Positions 5,661 to 41,079 of a stretch of DNA of 64,000 bases are shown piece by piece. Source of the stretch: Nitrospinota bacterium (lineage in GTDB: Bacteria; 2-12-FULL-45-22; JACOWJ01); NCBI GenBank assembly GCA_016176845.1, contig JACOWJ010000029.1, positions 19,335 through 83,334 of the forward strand. Reading direction: 5' to 3'. How positions within the stretch are numbered: the stretch's first letter is position 1; the number at the start of each line of letters is the position of its first letter. The position numbers and the translations under genes are program-made. The notes beneath the pieces were generated by a model that was given only the letters and a program-made list of their open reading frames with translations, had not been told where the DNA came from and did not search any database.

Positions 5661-7418
5661 GCCAGCCTTTATGCTCACCTCCGGCCGCACCAAGAGGCTC
5701 TTATAGGACGAGACCGTAACCTGCCCGGGCGGGGCCCCGGGGGGCTTGCGGACGTTTTTGGCGGGGGTGTAGAGGACCGGGACCTTGGTGGAACCTTTTC
5801 CCTTGCTGAAGTAAGCAGCCACCTGCGCCGCTTCCAGCAGGGTCCGTTCGGGAACCTCTCCGGCAGCCTTCCTCCGGATCAAGACGTGGGAGCCCGGGAG
5901 TCCCTGCGCGTGGAGCCAGAGGTCTTCCGGCCTGGCGACAGACCGCAGGAGCCAATCGTTTCCCCGGTTGCTCTTGCCGCAAAGGATCTCCCAGCCCTCC
6001 GAGGAAGTGAACCGGCGGCACCACTGGGCAAGCTGCGCCTGGCGGGCCGACGGAGCTCCCGGAGGGTGCGCCGGGGCGGGTCCCGAGCCGGAAGCAGGCG
6101 CGCGCTTTGCGATGCGCGAGGGGGGTTTCGCGTCAGAGAGGGGCTTCCACTTGAGGCTCTCCCGCACCTCCTCCTGGAGCAGGGAAAGGGCCTCCAAATC
6201 TTCGGCCTCCTCGACCTGGTAGAGGAGCCCCTCGACATACTCCAGCTCGGTCCGGGTCTGAGACTGGAGCTCGGCCACCCGGTCCAGGCCGTTCCTGGCC
6301 TTCCGGTACTTCTTGTAATAAGCCTCGGCGTTCTCCCGGGCCGAGAGCCGGACGTCCAGCGGCACTTCGATCTCCTCCATCTCGGGGGAGTAGTAGTTGA
6401 CCAGCCGGGCCGAGGGAGCGCCCTTGGTCACGGCGGCCTGTTGGGAGACGAGGAGGTCGGCGTGCTCCTTGAGCCTCAGGTAACCCTCGAGTTTGCGGTG
6501 GTCCCCCTCCAGGTTCTCCAGCTTGCGGTGACGGCGCTTCTTTTCCTTTTCCAGGAAGCGCTGCAGCTCCTTCAGGCCCTCCCGGAGGGCCTCCTCTTGC
6601 AGGCAGGGCCAGTAAAAGGCGTCGGCCGCCCGGTTCATCTCCTCGAAGAGCTGCCGGTCCACCCGGGGAAGGTGCAGGAGGTCAAAGGCACAGAGGGCCG
6701 CCTTTCCCTCGGGAAGCCGGATGATCTGGGGGACGAAGGGCCCTTGCAGGTAGCGGGCGCGCCACTGCTCAAGGGTTTCCCAGAGGAGCTCTAACCCCTC
6801 CGAGGCGTTCAGCTCCACCAACTCCCGTGTCAGGAGGGGGCCCATCCCCAGCAGGGAGAGAATGGACGCTTGGGGATGCTGCTGCAGGGATTCCCGCTCC
6901 AGTTGGGCCAGGCTCATCCGGGAGGGAGGGGGCGGCATCGGCCGGTACTTCTCCCCGGGCAAGATCGGCCGGATGGGGCTCTCCTGGGGGGAGAGATGCC
7001 TCAGGGCCTCCAGAATGGTCCGGTCCTCATCGGTAATCAGGATGTTGCTGTGGCGACCCACGATCTCCACGATCAGGTGAAACGTCTCCAACTTCCCATC
7101 GGCGTCTTTCCTCTGGTAGACTTGGGTGAGGACCCGGTCAAAAGGGGTGAGCTGGATGTCCACCAGCCGCGCCCCCGACAGGTGGCTGCGCAGGTAGGCG
7201 GCGAAGCGAAGGGGAGATGGCGGGTAGAGGGGCTTGTGCTCGGTGAGGTGAACGCGGCCCATCTCCGGGTCCACCGAGAGATAGAGCCGCTTCTCCCCGC
7301 GCCCCCAGAAATAGATCACCAGGTCGTTCTCGTTGACCTGGTAGACCTTGGAGACCAGGCTGTAGATCAGTCGTTCCTTAAGCTCCTCGACGATCGCTTT
7401 GAGGACGAAGATATCCAC
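5655..7418 (-). CDS. rqcH: NFACT family protein (RqcH/Rqc2 homolog)
   Basis: MDIFVLKAIVEELKERLIYSLVSKVYQVNENDLVIYFW and C-terminal NFACT-R region (GWEILCGKSNRGNDWLLRSVARPEDLWLHAQGLPGSHVLIR). Confidence 0.9.
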   Translation of the reverse strand: MDIFVLKAIVEELKERLIYSLVSKVYQVNENDLVIYFWGRGEKRLYLSVDPEMGRVHLTEHKPLYPPSPLRFAAYLRSHLSGARLVDIQLTPFDRVLTQVYQRKDADGKLETFHLIVEIVGRHSNILITDEDRTILEALRHLSPQESPIRPILPGEKYRPMPPPPSRMSLAQLERESLQQHPQASILSLLGMGPLLTRELVELNASEGLELLWETLEQWRARYLQGPFVPQIIRLPEGKAALCAFDLLHLPRVDRQLFEEMNRAADAFYWPCLQEEALREGLKELQRFLEKEKKRRHRKLENLEGDHRKLEGYLRLKEHADLLVSQQAAVTKGAPSARLVNYYSPEMEEIEVPLDVRLSARENAEAYYKKYRKARNGLDRVAELQSQTRTELEYVEGLLYQVEEAEDLEALSLLQEEVRESLKWKPLSDAKPPSRIAKRAPASGSGPAPAHPPGAPSARQAQLAQWCRRFTSSEGWEILCGKSNRGNDWLLRSVARPEDLWLHAQGLPGSHVLIRRKAAGEVPERTLLEAAQVAAYFSKGKGSTKVPVLYTPAKNVRKPPGAPPGQVTVSSYKSLLVRPEVSIKAGS

Positions 7419-7434
7419 CTTTCACCCTTTTTTT

Positions 7435-7504
7435 AAGTTTTAGGTGTTAAGTGTTAAGTGTTAAGTGTTAAGTCCTAACACCTAAAACTTAAAACCTAAA
7501 ACTT
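7435..7504. repeat. TTAAGTTTTAGGTGTTAAGTG imperfect inverted repeat (family F, copy 1)
   Basis: Self-complementary AAGTTTTAGGTGTTAAGTG(n)...CCTAACACCTAAAACTTAAAACC; related copy at 23397-23465. Confidence 0.7.
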
Positions 7505-7562
7505 ATTAATCTGCGTCTGAGATTATAGGACGGGATGGACCGGGGGGCAACGGGAGGAAAGG

Positions 7563-8711
7563 TTAAAGCTTCACCACCAGCTTCTTGATTGCCAGATCCA
7601 GCCCCTCGAGGGTCAGGGGGTACATGGGGAAGACCTGCCGGGCCATGCGGATGGTGGGATGGTTCCAGAGGCGGAGCGGTTCAGGGTTCAGCCAGACGCA
7701 GTGGGTGAAGTGGTCCGCTACCCGTCTCAGCCAGAGGATGCCCGGCGTCTCGTTCTTATCGATGTACCAGATCGCCCCATGGCGCTGGGTCAACTCCTCG
7801 GTGCCCATGGAGGCGTCTCCTACCAGGATCACCCGGTAGTCTGACTCCAGGGTCCGCAACATCTGGGAGGTATGGTAGGTGGACTTGCGCTCGACATCCA
7901 GATAGATTCTATCGTAAATACAGTTGTGGAAGTAATAATACTTAAAATCCTTAAAATGGGTGGCCGAATGGGCGGCGGAGAAGAGCTGGCTGCAGAGACG
8001 GGAGTATGGGGTCATCGAGCCCCCCACGTCCATCAGGAGCAGGAGCTTCACCGCGTTCTTGCGACTGCGCCGCCAGATGAGCTCCAGCTCCCCGGCGTTG
8101 CGGCTGGTGGCGTCGATCGTCTCCTCCAGAGCAAGCTCGTCCACCGGTCCCTGGCGGTTGAGCTGCCGCAGCCGCTTCAGGGCCAGCTGAAACTGGCGCA
8201 CGTCCAGCGTCACGTCATCCCGGTAGTTCTTAAAGTGGCGCTCTGCGGCCACCTTGACCGCCGAGCGGCGTCCCCCTTCGCCATCCGTCCGGGTCCCCTC
8301 CTCGCCCTGGCCATCATGGCCCCGGGAGGACCTCCCCCCCCGGCCGATCCAGCGATCTCCCCCATCGTGCTGGCCATCCTGCTCCTCAACTTCGAACGCC
8401 CGCTGCATCCGGCGCATCTGGGCCAGCTCTTCCGGGGTGAGGCGAAGGTTGGCGGGGTTGCGCATCCACTCCAACGCCTGCTGAATCAGATCCTCGGAGG
8501 CCTCCACCCCTTTAAAATACTCCTGGAAGGCCAGGTCGTACTGGTCGTAATGGACCTCGCTCTTGACCAGAATGGCGCGGGCCAGGTAGTAGAAGGCCTG
8601 CAGGCTGCTCTGGGCGTAACCGCGGGAAAGGGCCTCCATCAGCGTCATCCACTCGGTGATGGAGACCGGCACCTTCTTCTGGCGCAGCAGGTAAAAGAAA
8701 TCGATGAACAT
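7563..8711 (-). CDS. VWA domain-containing CoxE-like protein
   Basis: FIDFFYLLRQKKVPVSITEWMTLMEALSRGY N-terminus; LLLLMDVGGSMTPY MIDAS-like motif; adjacent MoxR ATPase. Confidence 0.85.
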   Translation of the reverse strand: MFIDFFYLLRQKKVPVSITEWMTLMEALSRGYAQSSLQAFYYLARAILVKSEVHYDQYDLAFQEYFKGVEASEDLIQQALEWMRNPANLRLTPEELAQMRRMQRAFEVEEQDGQHDGGDRWIGRGGRSSRGHDGQGEEGTRTDGEGGRRSAVKVAAERHFKNYRDDVTLDVRQFQLALKRLRQLNRQGPVDELALEETIDATSRNAGELELIWRRSRKNAVKLLLLMDVGGSMTPYSRLCSQLFSAAHSATHFKDFKYYYFHNCIYDRIYLDVERKSTYHTSQMLRTLESDYRVILVGDASMGTEELTQRHGAIWYIDKNETPGILWLRRVADHFTHCVWLNPEPLRLWNHPTIRMARQVFPMYPLTLEGLDLAIKKLVVKL

Positions 8712-34252: not shown

Positions 34253-36157
34253 ATGGGAATGAAACGTTACAACTTTTTAAAAATAATTTCGGCGATTTCG
34301 GGGTCGATGTGTCTGTTGGCATCCTCCTTACCTGTTGAAGCTGATGTCCTTGAAAAAATCCAAATTCCCCTTTCTTACCTACAAAAGAATGATATTTCCA
34401 CCCACTCTGAAGTGAAAAAAAGCCTTCTATCTTTGAATAAGTGGATTAGCAAAAGAGACAAAAAGGGGATAAAAAAAACAATAGATAATCTTAAAACGAT
34501 TCGTCTAAATTGGGGGAGCAGGAATCTTCCGTTTATCGCGGATTTCCTCCGAGGAAAAGGCCAATTCTTGTTTCAATTAGAGGAATATGATTTGGGGATT
34601 TTTCTGTTGGAACAGGCTAAAGATGCATTTCCTGAAGATTATAGAATTCGTTTTTCTCTCACTAAAATTTATTGCTCTAATCAGGGATTTGACCTTAGAA
34701 AGGGATATTTAAACCTGAAAGATGGACTTGGGCTTTATCTAAATTCAAAATTGAGGCAAGATCGGTTTGTTTATTCTTCCATTATTTTATTTTGTTTCGC
34801 TTTTGTAATTTCCATTTATCTCTATTTTATGCTTCTTCTATTGAAAAATTATAAAAAAGTAAGCTATGATCTCAAGAAAATACTAGGACTCAATGTTAAA
34901 TCGTTATTTTCATCTTTCTTTACAATTCTTCTTATCCTACTTCCAGGCATCGCAGGTAGTTTTTATGTTTTTATCCTGTCTATCCCTGCCTTTATCTGGC
35001 CTTATTTGAGAAATTTAAACAAAGCTATTTTGGCTGTGTTTACTGCATTTCTTTTATTTTGTCCGATTACATTGGGTTATGCTGTAGAAGGAATCATAAA
35101 ATACAACTCCTCTTATAACGGAAAACTTGATGATTTTTCCCATAATGTTTGGGACACCGAAACGTTAAATTATTTTAAAGACCGTCTTAATAAAGACATG
35201 CATGATCCTTTTATCAATACATCTGTAGGATTACTCTACAAATGGATGGGAGATCTAAATAAATATCATCGCATATTTAACAAACTTAATCAGGATAACC
35301 CAGATCATGTACCCACTTTGATCAATTTTGGAAATTCCATGCTTTTATCTGGAAAGCTTGATGAAGCGATGAAGCTCTACCAACAAGCCCTGAAGATTGC
35401 CCCTAATAGCGTAGAAGCCCATTATAATTTAAGTCTGGCTCTGGAGGAGAATATGAAATTTGTGGAGGCGAGAGGAGAGTATCAGAAAGCGCACGCCATA
35501 GATCCAATCAGGCTTCAGCGTCTTCTGTCTCAATTCTTGGCCCAAAAATCCAATAACGTGCAACCAATGGATAAAATCGCAGATATTCCCAAATTTGAAG
35601 CGACAGAAAATTCCCAGATCTTATCAAACCAAATGAAGGAAGAGGTGTTAAATTTTCTCTTAATTCCACTCTTACGAAAAGAATCGATCATTCCCTTCGC
35701 GACTTCGCTACTTTTTCTCATACTGCTTATGCTATGGCGTTACAAAATATTAACCAAAGCAAGCGAACAATGTGATACCTGCGGTACAGTCTTTGAGCGG
35801 GAAATGAAATGCCCGTTGTGCATTGCCATGAAGACATCCCACATGCGGCTAGATCCTGAAAAAAGGGAAATGGCGTCTGTGAAGATATGGAGATATTCCA
35901 TATTTAAAAAAACTGTTCCAACCCTATTTAATGCGATCTTACCCGGATCAGGTCTACTTTTTGACGATTCAGATCTAGCAGGGTTTGTTTTTATTTTTTT
36001 GACCCTATTTTTGGTTATTTGCGGAGCCCTCTTTTTAATTTGTCCTTCACAGCCTTTTCAGGTTGAAGTAATCATTACTTTTTTGGCTGGGTACTATATG
36101 ATCATTAACTTTCTTTTTATTTTTCAAACTAAAATATGGCACTTAAAGGAAATTTAA
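34253..36157 (+). CDS. Polytopic membrane protein with TPR region and zinc-ribbon
   Basis: ORF 33965..36157, in-frame ATGs at 34253/34259; signal-like N-terminus; TPR NFGNSMLLSGKLDEAMKLYQQALKIAPNSVEAHYNLSLAL; CDTCGTVFEREMKCPLC; several TM helices. Confidence 0.75.
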   Translation: MGMKRYNFLKIISAISGSMCLLASSLPVEADVLEKIQIPLSYLQKNDISTHSEVKKSLLSLNKWISKRDKKGIKKTIDNLKTIRLNWGSRNLPFIADFLRGKGQFLFQLEEYDLGIFLLEQAKDAFPEDYRIRFSLTKIYCSNQGFDLRKGYLNLKDGLGLYLNSKLRQDRFVYSSIILFCFAFVISIYLYFMLLLLKNYKKVSYDLKKILGLNVKSLFSSFFTILLILLPGIAGSFYVFILSIPAFIWPYLRNLNKAILAVFTAFLLFCPITLGYAVEGIIKYNSSYNGKLDDFSHNVWDTETLNYFKDRLNKDMHDPFINTSVGLLYKWMGDLNKYHRIFNKLNQDNPDHVPTLINFGNSMLLSGKLDEAMKLYQQALKIAPNSVEAHYNLSLALEENMKFVEARGEYQKAHAIDPIRLQRLLSQFLAQKSNNVQPMDKIADIPKFEATENSQILSNQMKEEVLNFLLIPLLRKESIIPFATSLLFLILLMLWRYKILTKASEQCDTCGTVFEREMKCPLCIAMKTSHMRLDPEKREMASVKIWRYSIFKKTVPTLFNAILPGSGLLFDDSDLAGFVFIFLTLFLVICGALFLICPSQPFQVEVIITFLAGYYMIINFLFIFQTKIWHLKEI

Positions 36158-37278
36158 AAGATTTTTCGATTAATAATATTCTCCAGATGATTTTTCTGGA
36201 GAAAAAGGGTGGGAGGCTTCTTGTAACCTCCGGAAAAGAATCGATTTCCGTTTTTTTTGATGAAGGGAAAATACTTCATGCGGAGCAAGGGGGGATAATT
36301 GATAAAAGAAGAATGAAACGAGTATTGCTTAAAAATCAATATTTAACTAAAGAACAGTGGGATTTGATGGTGGAAGAAAGTGAACGCACCTTTCAACCCC
36401 TATGGATACTTTTATCTCGCATTTTAGAAAAAAATACCCATGCATTCCTTTTTCTTCACCAACGTCATATTGAACATGTCCTTTTTAGCCTCCTTCGATG
36501 GGAGAGGGGTGAGTATGAATATAACCCAGAAGACGTCCCCCACCTGGATAAAAAGGTATTCAGGCCGGTTGAAGGGGAATTCCTTCTGATGGAAGGATAT
36601 CGAGTTATCGATGAGTTGAAAAAACTGGAATCCAAGCTTCCACCGATGGAAACCAAGATCTTTACTTCAACAGAGTATAACAAAATAGTGACTGAAAATG
36701 ATATTCGAGTCGATGATAACGAAAGATACATTCTGTCGATTTTAGAGCAACCCATATCCCTGAATGACCTTTTCGATTCAAGTCAGATTAATATTTGTGA
36801 AACAGGGAAAGGCGTTGAAAAGTTACTATCTTCAGGCATTTTAACGGTCTTATCAAAAGGAGAAGTACCTAAACTATCGGACAAATCAACGCATAACTGG
36901 AGGAAGCACGCTGTTGTCGGGTCGATATTTTTTTCCGTATTCCTCGGAATTTTGGTTCGAACAAAATATTTGGATACAGAATTCGCATCAAATCAATTAG
37001 TTAACAGGTATAAAATAATTCAGGTAACAGATACAATGAACAATATTGTAAAATCATTGAAGTTTTACATTTCACTAACAGGAACATTTCCATATAATCT
37101 TGAATCATTGGTGAAAGAGGGCTACATCTCAAGGAAAGAAACCTTGGATCCATGGGGAAGACAATTTATCCTTGAAAAAAATAGCCAATTTTTTGCAATC
37201 TTTAGTCAAGGTCCCTCCCCGGATGATCCTGGAGATGATATATATTTTCATTTGGATAACCAATTTTATCACGAATGA
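36136..37278 (+). CDS. DUF4388 (PatA N-terminal-like) protein with TM helix and GspG/pseudopilin-like C-terminal domain
   Basis: MALKGNLKDFSINNILQMIFLEKKGGRLLVTSGKESISVFFDEGKILHAEQGG; C-terminus GTFPYNLESLVKEGYISRKETLDPWGRQFIL...SQGPSPDDPGDDIYF; 22-nt overlap with upstream gene. Confidence 0.75.
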   Translation: MALKGNLKDFSINNILQMIFLEKKGGRLLVTSGKESISVFFDEGKILHAEQGGIIDKRRMKRVLLKNQYLTKEQWDLMVEESERTFQPLWILLSRILEKNTHAFLFLHQRHIEHVLFSLLRWERGEYEYNPEDVPHLDKKVFRPVEGEFLLMEGYRVIDELKKLESKLPPMETKIFTSTEYNKIVTENDIRVDDNERYILSILEQPISLNDLFDSSQINICETGKGVEKLLSSGILTVLSKGEVPKLSDKSTHNWRKHAVVGSIFFSVFLGILVRTKYLDTEFASNQLVNRYKIIQVTDTMNNIVKSLKFYISLTGTFPYNLESLVKEGYISRKETLDPWGRQFILEKNSQFFAIFSQGPSPDDPGDDIYFHLDNQFYHE

Positions 37279-37284
37279 CTTGTA

Positions 37285-38142
37285 ATGGATAAAACAGAAG
37301 AGAGACAGAACCCCTCGACATACTTAAAATTGGCCCAGACCTTCTTAAGTCTGGGCGATGACGATCTTGCAAGACTGACCTGCGAGAGAGGGCTAAAACA
37401 CTTTCCAACAGATGCGAGCCTGCATACTCAGAGGGGAAGTACATTAATCAGCTCGTACAACAAATCGAAGAAAACGGAAGATCTTATTCAGGCAATTAAG
37501 TCTTTCGAGAAGTCTATAGCCATCAATCCCGACAATTATCTCGCATTGATGTTGTCTGCCAAGATTTATATTAAGGTAAAAGCCTACTTTAAGGCCAGAC
37601 AAAAACTTACGATGATTCTTTCATCTTTTCCCGGAGATCCTAAGGCGACTGAATTGCTAAAGTTAATTTCAGCTAAGGAACAGCATTTGAAGCTAGTAGA
37701 CGAAGAAAAACTGCAAGTAGAGCTAGAAGGCGATGATGATGATATTGATAGTCAGGAAGATCAGATTTCAGCTAATTACGATTTACTAGCCTCCTATCTA
37801 AACCTATTTAAGGAGGAATATGGAATTGAGATGGTATTGTTGGTAGATAAATATGGAATGGTTATTAAAAGTATTAATATGTCAAAACGAGATTCCAACC
37901 GATACGGGATCGCTGTTTCAAATATATTCAGGTCGTCTCAAAACGCCGTGCGGAAAACGAGTCTTAGCACCTTTTCGAAAGGATTTTTAATCACTCCTGA
38001 ATACAACATCTACATTGTGGATGTAAAAGGTACCATCTTAGTCATTGTAACACTCCCTAAGGCCGAAAATGAAGGGATTGAAAAGAGAATCGAACATTAT
38101 GTCAGAGAAATAGACTCAAAATGGACATCGAAGAAATCCTGA
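37285..38142 (+). CDS. TPR-roadblock/LC7 fusion protein
   Basis: N-terminal TPR helices; C-terminal roadblock-like YGIEMVLLVDKYGMVIKSIN...ISNIFRSSQ...IYIVDVKGTILVIVTLP. Confidence 0.7.
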   Translation: MDKTEERQNPSTYLKLAQTFLSLGDDDLARLTCERGLKHFPTDASLHTQRGSTLISSYNKSKKTEDLIQAIKSFEKSIAINPDNYLALMLSAKIYIKVKAYFKARQKLTMILSSFPGDPKATELLKLISAKEQHLKLVDEEKLQVELEGDDDDIDSQEDQISANYDLLASYLNLFKEEYGIEMVLLVDKYGMVIKSINMSKRDSNRYGIAVSNIFRSSQNAVRKTSLSTFSKGFLITPEYNIYIVDVKGTILVIVTLPKAENEGIEKRIEHYVREIDSKWTSKKS

Positions 38143-38477
38143 AAAAGCTGAACAGGAACAAACATATCAAAGGAAGTCTGGTGATTACCCAAGAAGGTAT
38201 GGTGGTAATGTCGGCATTGGGGGCCGGGCAAAACGCTGACATTTTTGCTGCTTTCTATTCCTCCGTGGGCTTAACCATTTTGAAATCATTAAAGAACTTA
38301 GACATTGAAACCTTTTATCGGTATATCTTATCGTCCGAGGATTCCAACCTTTTTTTTGTTAACATTGGAAAACTGTACCTTGTGGTCATAACCGATATCG
38401 ATGTGAAACTGTCGGAAATGAATGTGGAACTTTATCAGATCGAGAGCCTAATTCGAAAAACGGGGCGCCTTGAATAA
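38121..38477 (+). CDS. Roadblock/LC7 domain protein
   Basis: IKGSLVITQEGMVVMSALGAGQNADIFAAFYSSVGLTILKSL...LFFVNIGKLYLVVITD; 22-nt overlap with upstream gene. Confidence 0.78.
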   Translation: MDIEEILKKLNRNKHIKGSLVITQEGMVVMSALGAGQNADIFAAFYSSVGLTILKSLKNLDIETFYRYILSSEDSNLFFVNIGKLYLVVITDIDVKLSEMNVELYQIESLIRKTGRLE

Positions 38478-38503
38478 CCATAAAAATAGCTCACGGTAAA
38501 ACA

Positions 38504-39853
38504 ATGCAGATCAATTTTTTTAAACGAGAAGTCATTTGTAAAATTGTATATTATGGTCCGGGGATGAGTGGAAAGACCACGAACCTACAGCAAATTAATG
38601 AAAAAACCCCGGTGGACCTCAGGAGCAATCTAACCTCGATTGCAACGGAAGGCGAAAGAACCCTTTTTTTTGATTATATGCCCCTAAACCTGGGAACCGT
38701 TGGTGATATGAACACAAAATTTCAATTGTACACTGTGCCAGGTCAAGTCTATTATAATGCAACGAGGAAGCTTGTACTTCAGGGAACGGATGGGGTTGTT
38801 TTTGTAGCAGACTCTCAAAATGATAAATTGAATGAAAACATTGAATCTCTACAAAACCTGGTTGATAATCTTAAAGAATATGGGATCTCGATAAAAGATA
38901 TTCCTCTGGTTATCCAGTGGAATAAAAGAGACCTACCGAATGCTTTGGATATTGAATATTTGGAAAAAAACATTAATAAATACAACGTTCCTAGTACAGA
39001 AGCAGTTGCTGCAATAGGTGAAGGTGTTGTAGAAACTTTAAAACTCATTTCATCTTTGGTCCTTGCAAATTTAACCCAAAAACAAAGTACAACGATCTCT
39101 GTGACCCAAAAACAAAGCACCACCACTTCTATAACCCAACAACAAAGTAGAGCCGCCTATCCGACCCTAAAACAAAGAACAACCGCTTCTCCTTCTCCCC
39201 AACCCTCAAAAACCACCCTTTTGCATAGGGTCCGGCAAGTTGGACAGAGGTATCTCGGCTGGATGCGGCGGAAAGAAAAAATATTAGCGACGATTGATGA
39301 TGTGAATATTAACAAATCCTATATGATAAATTTTTACAACTTGCAGGTAAGAATGAATGCAAAATCACCCGTAGAGGATAACTATGATAATTTATCCCAA
39401 TCGGAGAAGAAAGACTATCTTGATCAACTGATCAACCATTATCTGCTTCTTGGGGAATCTAAAAAGATAGGGATAACAATATCAAATCAAGAAGTAGATA
39501 AATACCTGAATCTTTACGTTAATAAATATGGATCAGAAGAGAAATACAAAACCTACCTCACCCAAAGGAAGCTAAAACTGGAAGACATAAAGAATGAAAT
39601 CATCAAACAAATTATTATTAACAAAATTATTAAAATAAAAATCCCTAATTTTCAAGAAAAACTCAAAGTAGATGAAAATGAACTTTTAGATTACTACAAA
39701 ACCAATCTGAAAAAAGTAAATGTTCCTTTTGAAAGCCAAAAAAAAGAAATTGAACAGGCCTTAACTAAACACAAAAAATCAAAATTGAACCAGGAGCTCT
39801 TTCAGATTTTGCGCAGCAAAAATACAATAAAGACCTATCCGGAGAATTTATGA
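38504..39853 (+). CDS. MglA-like small GTPase fused via repeat linker to a SurA-type chaperone domain lacking PPIase
   Basis: G1 YYGPGMSGKTTNLQ, YTVPGQVYYNATRKLVLQGTDGVVFVADSQ, NKRDLP; C-terminal YLDQLINHYLLLGESKKIGITISNQEVDKYLNLYVNKYGSEEKYKTYLTQRKLKLEDIKNEIIKQIIINKII. Confidence 0.85.
   Translation: MQINFFKREVICKIVYYGPGMSGKTTNLQQINEKTPVDLRSNLTSIATEGERTLFFDYMPLNLGTVGDMNTKFQLYTVPGQVYYNATRKLVLQGTDGVVFVADSQNDKLNENIESLQNLVDNLKEYGISIKDIPLVIQWNKRDLPNALDIEYLEKNINKYNVPSTEAVAAIGEGVVETLKLISSLVLANLTQKQSTTISVTQKQSTTTSITQQQSRAAYPTLKQRTTASPSPQPSKTTLLHRVRQVGQRYLGWMRRKEKILATIDDVNINKSYMINFYNLQVRMNAKSPVEDNYDNLSQSEKKDYLDQLINHYLLLGESKKIGITISNQEVDKYLNLYVNKYGSEEKYKTYLTQRKLKLEDIKNEIIKQIIINKIIKIKIPNFQEKLKVDENELLDYYKTNLKKVNVPFESQKKEIEQALTKHKKSKLNQELFQILRSKNTIKTYPENL
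39074..39193 (+). repeat. Four tandem 30-bp units encoding the TQKQSTT linker
   Basis: acccaaaaacaaagyac... at 39074, 39104, 39134, 39164. Confidence 0.85.
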
Positions 39854-39889
39854 TCGGGTATCGGATGAATCCGATTAGGAGGAATCTTT

Positions 39890-40408
39890 ATGAACGCCGA
39901 CGATCAAAAACTTCGCGATGAAAATCTGAGTTTTTACTTTGAAGATATCGAAAAAATTGATAAAGTGCTTAGTAATTTTCTCACTTTATCGAAGGCCAAG
40001 TCTGTTTTTCTGATCGATAAAAGTGGCAGCATGATAACCTATAAAGGGGAGAATCAATCTATCAATGTTGATGAATTGTCCGCTCTTGTGGCCGCAAGTT
40101 TTGCCGCCACCAAAGAAATAGCCCGTCTCTTAGGTGAGGCTGAATTTACGGTCATGTTCCATCAGGGGAAAAAAGATAATATCCATATCAGCCTGATCGG
40201 AAACAAAGCCATATCCGTAACCCTATTCGGTGATGATACCACTGTTGGAATGATCGGCCATTACTCAAAAGAACTTTCACACAAACTTGCGTCCATATTC
40301 GAAATCATATCCAAAAGGATTGTCCGACATCAGGAGCAGATTGCCGGGGATTTAGGCGCATTCGTCGAAAATAAACTGAATGAACTTTTTAAGGTCTATC
40401 CCTCGTAG
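39890..40408 (+). CDS. Roadblock/LC7 domain protein (MglB-like)
   Basis: [50 protein letters not shown]...[23 protein letters not shown]. Confidence 0.82.
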
Positions 40409-41079
40409 AGGATGGGGTCCGGCAGGCCGGCCCGGGCAAACCCTCGCAGGCGCAACGCGCAGCTATCGCATCGGCCACAGGCCCGCTCGTTGCCCTGGTA
40501 GCACGACCAGGTCAGTCCCAGGGGGGCCTGGAGCTCTGCCCCTTTCCTCACAATCTCCGCTTTGGTCATCCGGATGAGGGGGGTCAAGATTTCGATCCGG
40601 GTCTCGGGCCGGGTCCCCAGAGCGATCACCCGATTGAAGGCCCGGTAGAACTCCTCTCGGCAGTCAGGGTAGCCGGAGCTGTCCTCTTCGACGACCCCGA
40701 TGAAAATCTTGCAGGCCCCCAGGACCTCACCCCAGGAGACTGCGACGGAGAGCAGATGTGCGTTGCGGAAGGGGATGTAGGAGGTTGGGATGTTGGGGTT
40801 GTCAAGGTCAGCCAGGGAAACGGGGATCGCCTCATCAGTTAGGCTGGAGCCCCCGATCTCCTTGAGGTAGGCCACCGAGGCGACCAACCGCTTCTCCACA
40901 CGGTAGTAATCAGCGATCTCATGAAAGGCCCGCAGCTCCCGCTCCTCAGTCCTTTGGCCGTAGTTGAGGTGCAGGAAGGCCAGCCGGTAATCCAGGTCGG
41001 CAATGGCCGCCGTCACACAGCTGTCCAGCCCGCCGCTGACCAGCACCACTGCCCACTCGTTCTTTCCTTTTTGGCTCAT
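40396..41079 (-). CDS. queC: 7-cyano-7-deazaguanine synthase
   Basis: [77 protein letters not shown]. Confidence 0.95.

Follow-up and report, generated by a model that had tools for sequence, protein, structure and literature searches.

The conserved object described here is a two-gene unit, in which a partner gene is followed by a gene whose product joins a DUF4388 (PATAN) domain, a transmembrane (TM) helix and a GspG-like pseudopilin domain. It was identified in a stretch of 64,000 nucleotides from a Nitrospinota bacterium, referred to below as the window, where the fusion protein, P0001 (36136–37278, + strand), is a complete ORF of 380 aa with an ATG start and the order PATAN, predicted winged helix, TM helix and pseudopilin domain. 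A preliminary description of the window had suggested looking for this architecture elsewhere, and it was seen again in over 80 genomes from several phyla, with the fusion found in Myxococcota, Acidobacteriota, Nitrospirota, Nitrospinota and groups classified under Deltaproteobacteria or Thermodesulfobacteriota. The individual parts of the protein are all known already; no description of the fusion, of its partner or of its apparently exchangeable input was found in the papers searched, which covered few subscription journals. The fusion appears to connect cell-polarity signalling directly to a pilus or secretion machine.

The DUF4388 domain named at the N-terminus was matched at residues 4–161 (36145–36618, +; PF14332, E = 5.1e-22), with 78.6 bits in Pfam exceeding the cut-off of 25. 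It is followed by a predicted winged-helix region at residues 194–239 (36715–36852, +), which was assigned from the secondary structure of the model, and profile searches gave TrmB, MarR or wHTH matches in several relatives. The 1.53-Mb assembly of its own genome, which is 68% complete, contains the gene once, and the antisense strand of the gene carries nothing but short ORFs. Relatives were drawn from one-per-family genomes and from named genomes, and 44 were aligned. The search of genome contigs with the single P0001 sequence returned none, and the search with the alignment as the query succeeded. When the fusion was sought in the phylum of genome G058, no genome besides G058 was found to carry it.

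The globular C-terminal part lies at residues 316–374 (37081–37257, +) and was assigned to GspG/T2SSG by profile and fold. The T2SSG match of P0001 itself (residues 326–366, E = 0.012, 16.1 bits) falls under the 21-bit cut-off, so the pilin claim is suggestive when based on this one sequence. At the family level, T2SSG was matched by 32 of the 44 relatives with the same architecture (best E = 1.5e-9) and DUF4388 by all 44, and none of seven control DUF4388 proteins lacking the fusion matched T2SSG. The closest relative found, L144, lies above the cut-off (32.8 bits, E = 7.7e-8). The pseudopilin signature GTFP..LDPWG..SQGP..GDDI is as originally described, and it aligns with a pattern conserved in the relatives, namely YP-x2-L-x2-LV, DPWG and SxGxD..DDI.

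A PDB search with a profile of the C-domain only returned GspG first (2kep, E = 1.4e-7), and the top eight matches were all GspG or type II pseudopilins; the single P0001 sequence gave no match. The AlphaFold models, with a mean pLDDT of 87 for the C-terminal fragment and 87.5 for the whole protein, displayed a pilin-like fold with a long helix and three strands. In Foldseek, ranks 1 to 4 were type IV pilins, but with poor E-values of 0.36 and above, and weak matches over the cytosolic half dominated the search with the whole model. The structural comparison with GspG thus yielded a pseudopilin match, and the GspG-like C-domain that had been read from the signature is borne out by the family matches, the PDB profile search and the predicted fold. 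On sequence and modelling grounds, the assignment to the GspG/T2SSG family is firm at the family level. The segment SQGPSPDDPGDDI (residues 357–369; 37204–37242, +) occupies the position of the calcium-binding loop of GspG. It is partly preserved in P0001; the calcium-loop pattern was found in 9 of the 44 family members, and in many relatives the loop is lost and the protein ends at the last strand.

The TM helix of the earlier account is present at residues 258–276. In the AlphaFold model it forms part of one continuous helix (residues 255–315; 36898–37080, +; also supported by hydropathy), which passes through the membrane into the pilin-like domain and is placed like the alpha-1 helix of a pilin. 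The pLDDT of this helix falls to 62–68 around residues 271–290. The TM centre and the conserved Pro are 52 apart in P0001 (family median 57) and, by our own count, about 47 apart in the true GspG-like protein L014. Since the helix is continuous, the protein is laid out like a pilin extended by 255 residues in the cytosol and not like a helix-less pilin domain, and the statement that the pilin part lacks its own N-terminal helix had to be abandoned.

The reported lack of a prepilin cleavage site did hold. The N_methyl family was not among the best 25 of the 26 families matched by the 44 relatives, and the class III prepilin motif was detected in only one of the 44, where it lies in the segment upstream of the TM helix. 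The position of the TM segment is kept among the 44 members and its sequence is not; Glu5 and the other usual pilin residues were not found in the TM segments of the family. We uphold the conclusion that P0001 cannot serve as an ordinary pilin subunit, because a cytosolic head of about 250 residues is combined with the missing cleavage signal. The pilin-type layout, together with the cytosolic nature of the PATAN domain and of the MglA partners, would place the head inside and the pilin domain outside.

The PATAN domain contains a helical insertion of the MshEN/PilB-N type at residues 59–111 (36310–36468, +), located by the family profile and motif scoring. Over this insertion, the fusion-family profile matched the N-domains in structures of PilF (E = 7.8e-22), MshE (1.3e-10) and PilB (7.6e-9), and by sequence comparison the insertion is homologous to the MshEN/PilB N-domain. 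MshEN is a c-di-GMP receptor made of two 24-residue motifs with a 5-residue spacer (PMC5013675). The insertion of P0001 keeps the 24+5+24 spacing with a degenerate c-di-GMP motif (2 of 12 key residues). The two RLGxx..Q motifs are intact in many relatives, and all 12 key residues were observed in L034, L053, L057 and L066.

The motif was degenerate in all eight loci with a linked GTPase gene, which represent about five lineages (p = 2e-5 on the first six), and most loci lacking the GTPase had a motif that was not degenerate. The exceptions are L063, L145–L148 and L151, where the motif is degenerate or weak and a GTPase is not nearby. We treat a tie between degeneracy of the MshEN motif and the presence of a GTPase gene in the locus as suggestive only. 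A total loss of c-di-GMP signalling was considered as the background of the degenerate motifs and rejected: GGDEF genes occur in 14/14 fusion genomes, including that of the window, so c-di-GMP itself is retained.

In the window, the pair is closely followed by four genes on the + strand (37285–40408). These encode a TPR-roadblock fusion protein (37285–38142; Robl_LC7 E = 7.2e-7, with TPRs), a Roadblock/LC7 protein (38121–38477; Robl_LC7 E = 6.6e-8), an MglA-like small GTPase (38504–39853; Arf E = 1.9e-9) and an MglB-like roadblock protein (39890–40408; Robl_LC7 E = 1.4e-9). The last of these matched the NCBIfam MglB model at E = 1.4e-18, below the cut-off of the model, and the GTPase matched a Nitrospinota homologue at E = 9e-80. 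The TPR-roadblock gene, which has homologues in L027–L030 and L144, overlaps the second roadblock gene by 22 bp. The GTPase carries a SurA_N-like chaperone tail at its C-terminus (residues 259–375; SurA_N_3 E = 1.9e-8), and the same fusion was seen in L027–L030 and L144. A QueC-like gene, named by eye, adjoins the operon on the other strand (40396–41079, −).

All six genes of the window are also found in the Nitrospinota loci L027–L030 and in L144, with the pair at the other end. L150 follows the gene order of the window as far as its contig reaches, and in L073 the GTPase gene lies just upstream of the pair. An MglA-like GTPase was present in 14/14 genomes with the fusion versus 30/102 others (p = 3e-7). 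This co-occurrence was rejected as fusion-specific evidence, as it is about as strong in genomes with only unfused DUF4388 (16/18); the association with MglA therefore belongs to PATAN proteins generally. PATAN genes near mglA and mglB were reported earlier (PMC4316618), and SgmX, a pilus regulator that links MglA to the pilus machine, co-occurs with PATAN proteins (PMC11580455).

The partner gene (34259–36157, +; alternative start at 34253, in an ORF open from 33965) is overlapped by the start of the fusion gene by 22 bp. Its product has an N-terminal signal or TM segment, TPRs, multiple TM helices and a CxxC..CxxC zinc ribbon, and it belongs to an unnamed membrane family of this composition that is conserved in different phyla. 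Judging by the charge pattern, the TPRs may lie in the periplasm and the zinc ribbon in the cytosol. A partner homologue lies directly upstream of the fusion gene in 80/80 loci from named genomes and in 11 of the 12 loci from one-per-family genomes. The four-cysteine zinc ribbon was identified in 79 of the 80 partners, the exception being cut off by a contig end.

Several loci displayed further arrangements. Upstream of the gene for a DUF4388 and pilin-like protein in L145, the usual partner is replaced by a gene joining MshEN (E = 4.3e-13) to TonB_C (6097–7647), and the MshEN insertion of the adjoining PATAN protein is degenerate. In Myxococcus vastator (L099, 5742–12924), the pair lies upstream of phoH and of a gene for a 7TM-HD phosphohydrolase. 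In Acanthopleuribacter (L036, 4003–4902), the gene for a second, short DUF4388 protein is located upstream of the pair at a distance of about 1.2 kb, and in L026 (5013–6528) QueE- and QueC-like genes, named by eye, are directly downstream of the pair.

The genome of the window encodes a PilB/GspE-like ATPase, PilT-like ATPases and a prepilin cluster. Co-occurrence with PilT was dismissed as uninformative, since PilT-like ATPases are near-universal (107/116 genomes). None of the neighbourhoods inspected showed the fusion gene within a pil or gsp operon. PATAN domains bind the extension motor PilB (Han 2022, cited in PMC10519157).

We tentatively propose, with somewhat less than an even chance of being right, that P0001 mimics a pilin in the inner membrane without being cleaved and serves there as an adaptor for the machinery of a type IV pilus or of type II secretion. 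An uncleaved pilin-type helix would anchor the PATAN and winged-helix regions and bear the GspG-like domain on the periplasmic side. The helix and the periplasmic domain may dock at the pilin assembly site, on the TPR/zinc-ribbon partner, or on both, and the PATAN head would tie the assembly site to the extension ATPase and the polarity system. The inputs would be the MglA-like GTPase, MglB and roadblock proteins of the operon, and c-di-GMP in lineages whose MshEN motif is intact. Being neither cleaved nor polymerised, the protein would remain membrane-bound and act as a fixed priming or gating subunit that can be regulated. We regard the architecture as secure and infer the adaptor mechanism, as well as the topology, the docking on pilins or PilB and the direction of signalling.

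The main rival of the adaptor reading, to which we give an appreciable chance of about one third, holds that the GspG-like domain was reused only to bind the TPR/zinc-ribbon partner, within a general signalling complex of the envelope that has nothing to do with pili or type II secretion. The near-invariance of the partner, the lack of adjacent pil or gsp genes in the loci inspected, and the many relatives in which the calcium loop is gone and the protein terminates at the last strand are all consistent with it; the resemblance of both the PATAN insertion (to PilB/MshE N-domains) and the C-domain (to GspG) to parts of pilus or secretion machines argues against it, as does the known action of PATAN proteins on PilB. 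An unlikely alternative is a sensor of the pilin pool, in which the helix would swap partners with free pilins and the winged helix and PATAN head would report their level, possibly to transcription. The intramembrane contact of PilA with PilS offers a precedent (Kilmury 2016, cited in PMC6058289), and the modelled winged-helix region would fit such a role, but the TM segment is not conserved in sequence and lacks Glu5 and the other residues usual in pilins.

Very improbable is a true pseudopilin that loses its cytosolic head to proteolysis and then polymerises: the pilin-like fold and helix agree with it, but the class III signal is missing from the family, and we know of no precedent for a pseudopilin leader of about 255 residues. 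That the fusion is an artefact of assembly, a frameshift or a chance similarity would accord with the E-value of 0.012 obtained for P0001 alone; the probability is negligible, and the idea is refuted by more than 80 genomes with the same architecture, the conserved partner and the family-level T2SSG matches.

A broader form of the adaptor reading, which we regard as rather doubtful, is a distinct class of pilus or secretion regulators, in which an uncleaved pilin mimic in the assembly site would be switched by PATAN from the cytosol with an exchangeable input. This input would be c-di-GMP through the MshEN insertion in many lineages, and a dedicated MglA/MglB GTPase module where the c-di-GMP site has decayed (the window, Nitrospinota, L144, L150 and L073). 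The two-gene unit is a concrete and testable candidate link from MglA and c-di-GMP signals to the pilus machine, as its fusion product resembles an ATPase N-domain inside and a pseudopilin outside, and it occurs in the cultivable Myxococcus and Corallococcus. If true, a pilin fold would serve as a fixed regulatory part rather than as a filament subunit.

Comparison with known systems places each part of P0001 in a different context. The PATAN domain is shared with the PATAN-CheY regulators PixG, PixE, LsiR and PatA, and in Synechocystis this domain targets PilB, the motor of type IV pili; these regulators are soluble and end in the receiver domain, whereas P0001 is membrane-anchored and ends in the pseudopilin domain. 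The MshEN or GSPII N-domains of PilB, MshE and PilF have the same 24+5+24 motif spacing but are fused to an ATPase, whereas the P0001 version is inserted in PATAN and has a degenerate c-di-GMP motif. With the GspG/T2SSG major pseudopilins, P0001 shares the C-domain fold, the signature and the helix-domain layout; unlike them, it has a large cytosolic head and no prepilin signal, lies outside gsp operons in the loci inspected, and has relatives most of which have lost the calcium loop. The CpaL-type minor pilins of Caulobacter Tad pili likewise combine a pilin-like domain with an extra domain, but CpaL carries this vWA domain on the outer side and is predicted to sit at the pilus tip. The MglA-like GTPase, MglB and roadblock proteins of the operon recall the MglA/MglB/RomR and SgmX systems of Myxococcus, to which the operon adds a membrane protein that mimics a pilin and, on its GTPase, a SurA-like tail.
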